Below are positions 10,362-37,712 of a stretch of 64,000 nucleotides of DNA, in pieces. The translations under genes and the position numbers were made by a program. The stretch covers positions 62,001 to 126,000 of the forward strand of contig NW_004085884.1 of assembly GCF_000220395.1 (NCBI RefSeq), written 5' to 3'. Positions within the stretch are counted from its first letter, which is position 1; every line of letters begins with the position of its first letter. Under the pieces are notes generated by a model. That model saw only the letters and a list, made by a program, of their open reading frames with translations, was not told the DNA's origin and made no database searches. The DNA comes from Ichthyophthirius multifiliis. Its lineage: Eukaryota; Ciliophora; Oligohymenophorea; Hymenostomatida.

Positions 10362-11906
10362 TCAAATACATAATTTTTTATATGGCGAATTATTAATTAA
10401 ATCTTAGTCTTAATTTTTTTTAATATAATTACCTATTTCTTTTTTTTTCTCAATCTTAACATATTTACAAAAAGCTTCTCTTATATCTTAAATAAATCCC
10501 ACATCCTTATTATTAACAACATAAATCCTAACAATTTTTTCACCGAAACTCTTTGGAGTTAACAATGAAACAGTATCCGGATCTAAAAATCCACATTTTT
10601 AAATCTTTGAAGGCGCAAAAAACATCACTTTTCTAACTGGATCTAGATTATTCATACAATAAGACACACGAGAAATACTTACTCTAATAAATTTCTCTAA
10701 TTAACTATCTTTTTAATTTAAATATTTTTATAAGCCTTCAAAAACTTCCTCTTTTGTGATTTTTTCATCTATCCCGCAAACAAATTCACAGACGAATTTA
10801 TATAAATTTCTCTTAAAAATCCTTTCTAGGATTTCCCGACTTTCCTTCAACTCTTAATTTTCTGAAAAAACTATATCTTCTAAAATTCTATCAGTTAATT
10901 TCTAATACTACTTCATATCTTTAACTATATTCCTAAAATTATAAACCGAATTTGCTTTTTCCAATGCATCACAAAGCATATACTCTATTCCCTAAGCAAC
11001 TCTATGTAAATATGCATTTTTGAACATTTTATACCTTGTTTGGAATAATTCATATATTTCGCAGTGAATTTTCGAGTTATAGCATATATTATCATCAATA
11101 ATACGACTTTCTTTAAATAAAAAATCGCACTGAAATTAATGTCTTATTCCCAAACATAAAGGATCTCTTGATAAATAATCAAACTTATCCACATCTATAG
11201 TAGTATTTTTATTATTAACAATATCGAAAATCCACATAGGATATTTCCCTTTATATTTCTGTAATCTCTATTCATTATTTATCCCTATTATCATATCTAA
11301 AATAACATCCAAATCCCCTTTATTCGGATCAAAATTAACTCCTTTAAAGTAAATAAGGTTCTCCTATTAATTAAATCCATTTTCTTCTAACAAAAATTTC
11401 AACATATCGCAACTTCCCTATTCATGACTCCAATGCTTTTCCCCTAAAAGAGGCATTAATAAATTATCAAACATATGAGAAAATGGACCATGTCCTAAAT
11501 CATGGCATAAACCAGCAATAGTGACTAATAATTGGGCTTTATAAAATCCTTTTTCATCTTCAAAGTTCAACTCTTTATAATTATTGTGGTGATTTAGTAA
11601 TATTTGTGTCATATATTGTTAGGCTAAATACGCTACTCCCAAGCTATGCTCAAATCGGGTGTGGTTTGCACCGTTAAATACGAAAGATGTTATCCCTAAT
11701 TACTTAATATTACGTAAACGTTAGAATTATGGAGTATCTATTATTCGCCATATTTATGCTGGGAGTTCTATTAGTTAATGTACGGGGTCGGATATTTTTC
11801 TATATTCGTCTTAGCCTTGCTATTTGAATGGAATTGAATTGGAATTTGAATTTACGTAATATAAATGACTTTAGTTTTAAGATAAAATAGAACATTTATT
11901 AGACAT
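10362..11906 (-). CDS. SAMHD1-type HD-domain dNTP phosphohydrolase
   Basis: Intronless 514-aa protein. HD superfamily metal ligands are all visible: RFEHSLG (first His), [14 protein letters not shown] (the HD pair plus a second His) and [11 protein letters not shown] (final Asp). Order and spacing match SAMHD1, which hydrolyses dNTPs to deoxynucleosides and triphosphate. The N-terminal segment before ISDPVHQLIELP is short, so the SAM domain of the animal protein is absent. The C-terminal half ([28 protein letters not shown]) also resembles SAMHD1. In eukaryotes such enzymes limit dNTP pools; that role here is inference. Adjacent to the TPR gene with convergent 3' ends about 100 bp apart. Confidence 0.92.
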
Positions 11907-31585: not shown

Positions 31586-31697
31586 TTTATCAGCGATATG
31601 AGTAGCCAGTTTTTCATAAAATAATCAATCCCAGTTAAGGGATATGGCCATCTCCATCATCATTGAAAATTTATAGGTAAGGATTACCTACTGATGT
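31586..31697 (-). ncRNA. U8-like box C/D snoRNA (SNORD118 family)
   Basis: Read on the minus strand, the 5' part is CATCAGTAGGTAATCCTTAC followed by CTATAA. This closely matches the conserved 5' end of vertebrate U8 (a CGTCAGGTGGGATAATCC-like start, then TTACCT). Next is a box C, ATGATGA, followed directly by TGGAGATGG, again as in U8. After a region able to fold (CTGGGATTGATTATTTTATG) a box D, CTGA, lies at 31590-31593 close to the 3' end. U8 is the snoRNA needed for 5.8S and 28S rRNA maturation. Length is about 110 nt. Local G+C is raised against the flanks. The upstream element and TATA-like sequence support an independent small-RNA gene. Ends are approximate. Confidence 0.8.
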
Positions 31698-31731: not shown

Positions 31732-31768
31732 CTTTATATAATATTTTCAATTTTTAACAATTATGGGT
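31732..31768 (-). promoter_or_regulatory. PSE-like ACCCATAA element and TATA-like box upstream of U8
   Basis: On the minus strand ACCCATAA occupies 31768-31761, about 65 nt upstream of the U8 5' end, and TATATAAAG lies near 31740-31732. From memory, ACCCATAA is the proximal element upstream of Tetrahymena small nuclear and telomerase RNA genes; that link is recalled knowledge and was not checked. Confidence 0.55.
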
Positions 31769-31919: not shown

Positions 31920-32914
31920 ATGCCACCAAAAAATAAAAAAGAATTAGAATTAGAAGCATAACGTTTATTAGAAGAATAATAAAAGCGCGAAGAAGAAGAA
32001 CGCCTATAAAAAGAAGAAGATAGAAAAAAATATGGAATAAGGTAATTAGAAACAGGACTATAATGTATTTTTACAGATTATTACATCAAAGAATGTTCAT
32101 AAACATGTGAAGATATTCGAAAATTCACTAGAGAATATTTAGAAAATCATTATTTTAATGAAATTGGTATAAATTAGAATTTCCGAGAAATAGATTGGAA
32201 AAGTCTAATTGAATTTAACTTATATAATTTATTATTTGCAAAGCATACAGTAAATATGAGTGATTAATAGGCTAAAATATTCATTAATATTATGTTTTAA
32301 GTATATATATAAGATGATTTGAAATTCGAAAAAGTTTAAATAGATGAAAATTTAGAAGAAAAAGAAAAAGAAGTGTTTTTAGAAGATGTTTTAAGAAAAA
32401 AAATAACATAAAAAATAAGGAAAAAGATTTCATATTTTTCAAAAAATTACTCCAAATGCATTCTTAAGGGGAAAACTCGAAATTTTTTGATTTAAAATTA
32501 TTAAAAGAAATTGTATTATATGCAAATAATAGTTATTTTGCACATTTTAATCTAATTGATTTTATTAAAAGAAATAAACAATAAGTTAAAGATTCATTTC
32601 AAATTGTCTATATTGATTTTCCTTAAGATATTCAATCGCTTGAATAGGCGAATGAAATTCCTGCATTAAAAAATTTAGACGAAGATTAGGAAAATTTTAG
32701 TCGCTTGGATGATAATAAAATTATTGATGCAAATAATAATAGATAGGAAATAGAGGAAGATGAAGAGCCTCTTGATGAAGTTGCTTTATAAATTATTAAT
32801 TAGAAAATTTAAGAGACTGAGGCGCTTTTACTAAAGTAATTGGAAGATAGATAAAATGAATTAAATGAGAAATTATAAGAACTTGATAAACCTAAAAAAT
32901 CTGGGAAAAAATGA
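31920..32914 (+). CDS. Glu/Lys-rich helical protein, possible ciliary component
   Basis: 320 aa from ATG 31920 with one 32-nt intron at 32388-32419. The N-terminus is a basic/acidic helix (MPPKNKKELELEAQRLLEEQ). A central globular part reads LETGLQCIFTDYYIKECSQ, REIDWKSLIEFNLYNLLFAK, then, after the intron, KDFIFFKKLLQMHSQGENSK and EIVLYANNSYFAHFNLIDFI. The C-terminus is acidic and coiled (ETEALLLKQLEDRQNELNEK) and ends KPKKSGKK. The pattern of a charged N-terminal helix, globular middle and acidic coil is usual in axonemal proteins, but I recognise no named family. It lies head-to-head with the U8 gene, the two 5' ends about 220 bp apart. Confidence 0.8.
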
Positions 32915-35279: not shown

Positions 35280-37712
35280 TCATTTTATATGTTTTTGAAT
35301 TTTTTTATATAGTTATTGAAAATCAAATGGTTTCTATATAATTTCGTTAGCACCAGATTTAAAGGCTTATTCGAAAACTTCTTATCCTTCCTAAGTAGTT
35401 GTAATAATAATAATAGATTTTTTACATTAGTTTTTTTCTTCAAAATCTCTTATTAGTTTAGTACTTTCGAAACCGTTCATTTCCGGCATTTAATCATCCA
35501 TAAAAATAAGTTCAAATAAATTTTATTAATATAATTAAAAACCCTATTATCCATCATTTGCACATAAAACGTTTCCTTCAAATTATTAAAATATTTTCCT
35601 AAGTAAAATTTAATTAAAAATATTATCATCAATAATTAAAACTTTTTAAAATTTTTTAGACATAAGTTATTGTTCAATTTTTTAATTATCTTTTCTTAAA
35701 AATATATAGTATTTGATCTATTATAATACGCGCTTTTTACGCTATTTTTTCTTAAATTATTCATAGATAAGTTAGTTTTTAACTAGTGTAATTATATTGA
35801 ATGTGAAATACTTTCTATTTAAATCTCATCTTATTATAAGTTTTCTTCGTTTTTTTAATATTCTAAATTTTGGAATAAATAAAAAGAAAATTCAGTACCA
35901 GTTTATCCATCTGAATTTAACTAAATATTTATTTAAGGTCCTAATTAATGTATTAATTTTTAACTTAATGAAAGACCAAGTCCTGCACCTTTATATTATA
36001 ATTTAAAAAAAAAATATTTATATATTAATTTTTTTACTTAGTTTATTATTTTCAGTTCTATATTCTTAAAAAATTTAATTTTATAAGTTTTATGGAATAC
36101 CACATCCATTATCTTTAATTTAAAAGAAAAGCAGATTATTTTTAAAAACAGAAATCGTAAGATTAATTATCCCATTTTTTTATGTAAATTTAATCGAATT
36201 AGAAATCATATTTATTAAAATCTACTTAATTCTAATTTAATCAGAATATAAAATAATATTTTGAGGTATTATAATTTAAAAATCAATATTTTTTTCTTCT
36301 AAAGAAATCAAAAAAATGTTTTTTAAATCAAAAATTAAAGCATTAAGTTCAAAAAAGGCCAAAACTAGATTAAATTTATTTTATTTTATTTATTAAGAAT
36401 CCATAATATTATTTAAAATGTTCATTAAAAATATTGAATTTGTATATATATTTTTCAACAGGTTTTTTCGGAAAAATTACATGCAATTTTTCGATGCTTC
36501 GTAAATAAAATTTAATGGAGTTCGTATATCTTGGACTACTTTTTCAAATGTTTTTTCGATTTATATTTGGGTGTTATTGATTCTTTAGTTTACTATTCCT
36601 GTGCTTATATCATTCAGACATAATAGAATTGAACGCTTTTTTTTAAAGAAGATTTATGTGATCTTTATATCCAAATATTTTTAGCTTCTATCATCAAAGC
36701 ATTCCGTAAATTAAAAAGTTAGTGGATCTATTTAATATAATTGTAGATTTTCAGAAATTTCTAAAGGTGAATTTAGAAGCTTTAGAATAATTGTGTGGAG
36801 GTTAGAAACTTATTTAGGCATTTAGATGGTTTTTAAGGATGATATTACGTCAGTTTCTTTATGATTTTGGATATATTTTTTACTAATAAATAATATTTGG
36901 AGATTTTCGTCGTTTATCGGAGTATTTATTTCTTCTTTAAAAGTTGATGAAACTTTTGATTGTTAGAGTTTATTTTTGCATTAATTTATTTTTTTATTTT
37001 GGAATTCTTTGGAAATAATTAATTCATCTGAAAGAGAATATTCTTAAATAACTTTCTTAAAATCTTAAAGCTTTTAATTTTTGATATAACTTTTGTGAAA
37101 TAAAATTTTATCATTTTTTTCAATTACAAAAGAGAGTATTATTATAAAAAATAATTGAAAAAAATAGGAAATTTAAAAAAACCAATTAAAATCATTCACA
37201 AAATAACACATATATACTGTCAAAGGAGTTATAATTTTAATTGCTCTAAAATAATAGGAGTAAAATAAAGGAATTTGAAATATTTAGTATATATAAAACC
37301 AATACTAATATATTTAATTATTTTATTCTGATAAGTTTCTAATAATTAGGACAAAAATAATATCGTATATAGTAGTTTAGATAAACATTATTTACTAATA
37401 ATTATTATTTTTGAGAAAAAATAATATTATTGAGGTTAATATTTAGATTAAGAATAGTAGTATTAGAAACCAAAAGTGAAAATTAAAATAAAATATTACT
37501 GTTAATATAGAAGATATTTAGTAAAGTAATATAAATACTATCAATAATTTGTTTTGTTCGTATTTTAATATTTTATAAGACGTATCTTAGGCAAGTATTT
37601 TAAATTATATGTTTATTTTTCCTTTAAATATGTTTTTACTTTAAAAAAATATTTCTCTTGTCCGAAAATAAATTTCATAATAAAATTTACTCATACTATA
37701 ATTTTGTTTCAT
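35280..37712 (-). CDS. Membrane hybrid histidine kinase with receiver domain, phosphoacceptor His replaced by Gln
   Basis: Two-component-type signalling protein. The N-terminal 250 residues hold about six hydrophobic helices (LLIVFILLYQISSILTVIFY, WFLILLFLIQILTSIILFF, QLFFIIILSFVIE). A cytoplasmic linker leads to the dimerisation box EKVVQDIRTPLNFIYEASK, where the usual His of SHExRTPLN is Gln, codon at 36531-36533. The ATPase domain has an N-box LINMISNSIKFTQ, G1 IKDNGCGIP and, across a 47-nt intron, G2 AGLGLSLSQKLI. The receiver domain starts KVLIIDDN, keeps the phosphoacceptor Asp in FMDDQMPEMNGFE and the Lys in IIQKPFDF. Ends HIK at TGA 35280-35282. Hybrid kinases of this kind are numerous in ciliates; loss of the His suggests a pseudo-kinase partner or a sequencing error. 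Confidence 0.9.

Follow-up and report, generated by a model that had tools for sequence, protein, structure and literature searches.

A box C/D snoRNA gene of the TtnuCD26 family with an snRNA-type promoter in the ciliate Ichthyophthirius multifiliis

Introduction

Is the small-RNA gene on the minus strand of this contig a gene for U8? The locus lies within a 64-kb stretch of Ichthyophthirius multifiliis DNA (64,000 nucleotides of contig NW_004085884.1, hereafter the window), where the original prediction placed a free-standing U8 small nucleolar RNA (snoRNA) gene at 31586..31697, transcribed like a small nuclear RNA (snRNA). The abstract of Andersen and Nielsen (NAR, 2012) reportedly presents a U8 candidate from Tetrahymena as the first outside metazoans. 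The excerpt available of a study of Tetrahymena snoRNAs cites their paper for a first U8 candidate outside metazoans, from Tetrahymena (PMC6315972), and a literature search by title and opening of the abstract returned no paper on ciliate U8 beyond PMC6315972 itself. A 2022 review, in its excerpted part, describes U8 as limited or unique to vertebrates, raises the question of its lack of conservation in other organisms, and reports that variants of the U8 gene cause brain disease (PMC8993069).

Results

A full-length member of the TtnuCD26 family

When the window was scanned with Rfam models, a single family exceeded its gathering score. This was RF02302, the TtnuCD26 family of Tetrahymena, which matched along the whole model (132 bits, gathering 90, positions 1-108 of 108). 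The prediction of a gene at this place was confirmed, the ends of the modeled RNA falling 1-3 nt inside the predicted limits. The RNA and its parts are as follows.

31589..31696, minus strand: snoRNA gene, 108 nt, ortholog of Tetrahymena TtnuCD26 (RF02302; cmscan, full-length model match)
31673..31696, minus strand: U8-like 5' block CATCAGTAGGTAATCCTTACCTAT, aligned to the Rfam U8 consensus
31675-31692, minus strand: the 5' motif named in the original prediction, AGTAGGTAATCCTTACCT
31657..31663, minus strand: box C, ATGATGA
31649..31655, minus strand: GGAGATG directly after box C, comparable to GGAG of the U8 consensus
31649-31663, minus strand: box C plus extension, ATGATGATGGAGATG
31590..31593, minus strand: box D, CTGA, RNA position 104, near the 3' end

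Every element that had been named (5' block, box C, box D, and the upstream element and TATA-like box described below) is present on the minus strand. The snoRNA equals the TtnuCD26 consensus in 103 of 108 letters (95% identity), and its five substitutions fall at RNA positions 26, 32, 61, 94, and 102. None lies in the first 24 nt, yet 0 of 24 against 5 of 84 is little informative. Tetrahymena TtnuCD26 and the window RNA thus share full length, boxes, and size, and differ by five substitutions and in organism, the one protein searched being 48% identical to its best Tetrahymena relatives. Identity of 95% along the entire RNA in a second ciliate shows strong constraint.

The pattern AATCCTTACCT-N{5,35}-ATGATGAT-N{0,1}-GGAG occurred once in the window and in none of 100 shuffles, while the shorter pattern AATCCTTACCT-N{5,35}-ATGATGAT occurred once in the 45-Mb genome and not at all in the control. 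A genome search (44.96-Mb assembly, 937 contigs) found no second full copy of the snoRNA. Elsewhere, a stretch of 62 bp (L002, C501:36929-36990) is 80% identical to the region upstream of the snoRNA (TTGTTAAAAATTGAAAA...). It has neither ACCCATAA nor an Rfam match over the cut-off, and may be a chance product of low complexity.

The predicted fold of the snoRNA has a free energy of -26.8 kcal/mol, a value reached by 3 of 200 shuffles. Positions 6-24 of the 5' block can form a hairpin, which is part of the minimum-energy fold with a pair probability of about 1. Two of the five differences from the consensus are unpaired in this fold, and the three that are paired form a standard pair in both the window and the consensus versions, although three cases are few. 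When the consensus itself is folded, its best structure (-23.8 kcal/mol) retains the 5' hairpin as well as the inner stem that includes position 94, but lacks the outer helices with positions 32 and 102, where two of the three pair-keeping changes lie.

Similarity to U8 is concentrated at the 5' end

Identification of the RNA as U8 held in part. The Rfam U8 model (RF00096) scored it below threshold, at 16.3 bits against a cut-off of 41 (E 1.5), and the family is TtnuCD26, but the similarity of its 5' end to U8 is significant. Among the families listed at E <= 10, U8 was second on the minus strand after TtnuCD26, aligned end to end. When the U8 model was run against the genome, the snoRNA locus was not among the places listed (51 of 3,160 candidates scored, which gives no full ranking). 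The best place listed, C407:80798-80924 (L007), scored 24.2 bits. We rejected it as a better U8, since it too is below the cut-off, the 160 nt upstream of it contain no ACCCAT-like motif, and this search at E <= 10 also gave sub-threshold matches in 7 of 14 prokaryote controls. Viral contigs yielded no match to the U8-like pattern and none to the large-subunit (LSU) motif.

In the 5' block, 23 of 24 aligned letters are identical to the Rfam U8 consensus, with one mismatch, at the 5' end of both RNAs; two single letters of the consensus are missing (two one-base gaps). Anchored at the 5' end, this similarity scores 85, which none of 200,000 letter shuffles reached (largest 75; Gumbel estimate 2.4e-5), although such counts overstate certainty somewhat because U8 was picked after sight of the sequence. 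The six other small RNAs of the genome (U1-U6) score 2-25 against the U8 5' end. Without the anchor, 0 of 20,000 shuffles reached the score of the block. Over the whole length, the outcome depended on gap cost, with 1 or 99 of 20,000 shuffles reaching the score, or 20 or 10 when boxes C and D were masked. Beyond the 5' block, again with masked boxes, similarity was at chance level (8,906 or 15,713 of 20,000).

Box C was predicted to carry a U8-type extension, a fair description if an inexact one: the U8 consensus has AUGAUGAUUGGAG where the snoRNA has AUGAUGAUGGAG. Like U8 (RF00096, SNORD118), the window RNA has the 5' block, GGAG next to box C on its 3' side, a box D at its 3' end, and a promoter of its own. 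In contrast, it is 27 nt shorter (108 nt against 135 model positions), and the distance from 5' block to box C is 11 nt rather than 28, so that the U8 hairpin located there is missing. Its 3' part is unrelated to U8, and its 5' block folds into a strong hairpin, whereas that of the U8 consensus does not.

These comparisons bear on two other readings of the RNA. It could be a ciliate box C/D methylation guide with a 5' end that resembles U8 by convergence, in which case the guide before box D would be about ACTCATATCG, as judged by eye. A guide would fit the canonical boxes C and D, a resemblance to U8 that does not extend beyond the 5' block and the region of box C, and a U8 model score below the cut-off. 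Nevertheless, we think this unlikely: conservation extends over the entire 108 nt, beyond any guide, the difference at position 102 sits two letters before box D and so inside the would-be guide, and the in-register similarity of the 5' block exceeds all shuffles made. Alternatively, the RNA could be a processing snoRNA specific to ciliates that shares no ancestor with animal U8. That ciliates can have such RNAs is indicated by TtnuCD32 of Tetrahymena, whose knock-down disturbs 5.8S processing and for which the excerpt consulted gives no methylation role as found (PMC6315972); the 3' part without U8 similarity and the absence of a U8-type hairpin between 5' block and box C point the same way. 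Yet this origin would call for a separate explanation of the 23 of 24 letters that match in register and of the GGAG that follows box C, and we judge it improbable.

The promoter resembles those of snRNA genes

Two elements and a divergent neighbor lie upstream of the RNA.

31733..31740, minus strand: TATA-like box TATATAAA, with TATAAA starting at -42; spacing shared with snRNA genes
31761..31768, minus strand: upstream sequence element (USE) ACCCATAA at -72; same element at snRNA genes
31920..32914, plus strand: divergent protein-coding stretch, two ciliate-code ORFs in different frames, joined by eye

For comparison, Rfam models located genes for U1, U2 (two copies), U3, U4, U5, and U6 (two copies) in the same genome. 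All eight have the USE at -64 to -71, exact in seven and as ACCCATTA at U3, so that it precedes 9 of 9 small-RNA genes examined (eight exact, U3 with one change). From the start of the USE to TATAAA, the spacing is 28 bp in U1, U2, and U3 and 30 bp in U4, U5, and the snoRNA gene; in both U6 genes, TATATA at 33 takes the place of TATAAA. By this spacing, the snoRNA gene groups with the presumed RNA polymerase II (Pol II) genes and not with U6, which would make Pol II its likely polymerase. At 72 nt, the USE lies about as far upstream as in the snRNA genes (64-71), which suggests that the transcript may carry a trimethylguanosine cap.

As a signal on its own, a USE match had to be rejected, with 882 occurrences of ACCCATAA in the genome against 952 of the reversed control. 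An Rfam scan of 20 of the 30 loci taken from the genome-wide ACCCATAA matches gave no match over the cut-off. Since the USE alone occurs at chance frequency, a match has meaning only through where it lies and how it is spaced. The composite AACCCATWA-N{20,22}-TATAAA occurs at 13 places in the genome (control, 8). Seven of these are the genes for U1, U2 (both), U3, U4, and U5 and the snoRNA gene. The other six (L044, L045, L047, L049, L051, and L052) have no Rfam match over the cut-off, L049 having one weak match to mir-297 (31.1 bits, cut-off 90).

At L051 (C683:4438-4473, plus strand), a stretch about 100-220 nt downstream of the composite appears richer in G+C and contains ATGATGA and TTCGCCGTACGC; judged by eye, it is possibly an unannotated small RNA. 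At L047 (C446:8009-8044, minus strand), the composite stands in very AT-rich DNA with no recognizable RNA behind it. The two U2 genes (L005 and L006, C922:31435-33391) lie on the same strand with equal model scores and starts 1,766 bp apart, and over the part displayed, which runs from the USE through the 3' element, their flanks are the same.

The USE in the window agrees with the one described for small-RNA genes of Tetrahymena in the excerpt of PMC6315972, where the USE of TtnuCD32 lies 98 bp and that of TtnuCD33 118 bp upstream of the mature RNA. TtnuCD32 is, like the window RNA, a ciliate box C/D RNA with a USE, and primer kla23 from the work on it contains the complement of AACCCATAA (PMC6315972, in excerpt). 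According to the same excerpt, mature TtnuCD32, with its USE 98 bp upstream, arises by cleavage of a 144-nt precursor (PMC6315972); in the window gene the USE distance is 72 nt, close to that of the snRNAs.

The 3' side and the neighboring genes

The presumed Pol II genes have a second shared element. The pattern ACACCC-N(4-6)-TAATTAAAC starts 3-11 nt after U1, U2 (both), U3, U4, and U5, downstream of the RNA in each case (L008, L005/L006, L003, L043, and L009, respectively), the U3 version being ACACCC-N4-TAATTAAAC. It is probably a Pol II snRNA 3' box. Both U6 genes lack it, as do all six other USE and TATA places. It is also absent from the 400 nt after the snoRNA, where the best score was 3.7, whereas all five elements that were scored reached 27.5 (median of 300 random 400-nt stretches, 4.6), and no exact match to the pattern occurs in the entire 3.2-kb snoRNA locus (L001). 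In this genome, the gene for U3 (ACEA_U3, RF01848, 99.7 bits) resembles the snoRNA gene in its USE (one change) and TATA box, spaced at 28 rather than 30, but it has the 3' element that the window gene lacks. Transcription in the manner of an snRNA is accordingly borne out on the promoter side (USE, TATA box, and spacing), but not by the 3' element of U1, U2, U3, U4, and U5. Trimming back to the box C/D particle perhaps generates the 3' end of the snoRNA. The missing 3' element would also suit a silent copy or pseudogene, a reading that is hardly credible: the USE and TATA box are intact and correctly spaced, the RNA is 95% identical to the family consensus, and the genome search found no further full copy.

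The divergent protein-coding stretch begins 223 bp from the snoRNA 5' end, and its second ORF has a weak match to CLAMP (PF14769, 21.6 bits, cut-off 22.7). With its own USE and TATA box and a divergent neighbor at that distance, the snoRNA gene looks free-standing, and an intron-encoded origin appears less likely on the same grounds.

In the window, G+C content is 12.6-22.5% per 4 kb; for the organism it is about 15%, another difference from Tetrahymena. A 514-aa ORF (10362-11906, minus strand) encodes an HD-domain protein related to SAMHD1; 26 of its codons would be read otherwise by the standard bacterial table, and the window genes are read under the ciliate code. Its best named relatives are from Tetrahymena utriculariae and T. 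malaccensis (48% identity), followed by the ciliate Pseudocohnilembus (43%), which indicates a ciliate near, and not within, the Tetrahymena species found. A response-regulator receiver domain (PF00072, 81.5 bits) at 35280-35663 (minus strand) adjoins an ORF at 35892-37712 (minus strand), and the pair probably belongs to a single intron-containing gene for a hybrid histidine kinase, the kinase part being recognized by eye.

Pairing with rRNA

The assembly yielded no 5.8S rRNA, and pairing was modeled on a stand-in, the 5' end of an oomycete LSU rRNA (PMC10623814), in place of the ciliate's own rRNA. The snoRNA and the U8 consensus choose the same site in it, AAUCCUU:AAGGAUU with a neighboring short helix. 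The snoRNA duplex (-12.1 kcal/mol) was reached by 1,361 of 2,000 query shuffles and 1,630 of 2,000 target shuffles, and that of the U8 consensus (-15.5 kcal/mol) by 1,088 and 989 of 2,000, respectively, so that neither duplex was more stable than those of shuffled sequences. Pairing of the snoRNA with a piece of oomycete ITS2 was stronger, at -14.5 kcal/mol. For vertebrate U8, the excerpted review presents the partner as disputed between the 5' and the 3' part of 28S (PMC8993069; see also PMC8058046, likewise in excerpt).

Discussion

Our results support the identification of this locus as a ciliate box C/D snoRNA gene that belongs to a family already known and has an snRNA-type promoter. New here is a TtnuCD26 ortholog in a ciliate other than the Tetrahymena species found, together with the promoter of this gene and the absence of the 3' element present behind U1-U5 and U3. 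The name TtnuCD26 had no match in our literature search, and that the published Tetrahymena U8 candidate is this same RNA is our inference. As a label for the window RNA, U8 is plausible but unproven, given that the Rfam U8 cut-off was missed.

We favor the reading, at a probability of about 0.6, that this is a free-standing ortholog of TtnuCD26 with a Pol II snRNA-type promoter that acts as the ciliate counterpart of U8. The observations behind it are the sequence itself, family membership, conservation, the promoter, and the similarity of the 5' end to U8. From these we infer the polymerase, the cap, the proteins, the pre-rRNA target, and the function. Pol II would most likely transcribe the gene from the USE and TATA promoter, and the transcript would begin at or near the mature 5' end, because the USE distance is snRNA-like. 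The snoRNA would be bound by box C/D proteins, and its 5' end may pair transiently with large-subunit pre-rRNA. Such pairing could help folding and cleavage around 5.8S and 26S, as expected of a U8 counterpart in ciliates.

A further-reaching proposal is that TtnuCD26 and its window ortholog are true, shortened U8 RNAs, such that U8 was present in the common ancestor of animals and ciliates, near the root of the eukaryotes, and was lost or became unrecognizable in yeast. We regard the chances for and against this as evenly balanced. It contradicts the published statement, as given in the excerpted review, that U8 is confined to vertebrates (PMC8993069).

Whichever name the RNA deserves, the common promoter and 3' elements provide a usable signature for small-RNA genes in I. 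multifiliis. If the ciliate RNA is U8, the question raised by the review about non-conservation would be wrongly put. Tetrahymena, where a snoRNA gene knock-down has been done according to the excerpt of PMC6315972, would then offer a simple and medically relevant system for the function of U8.
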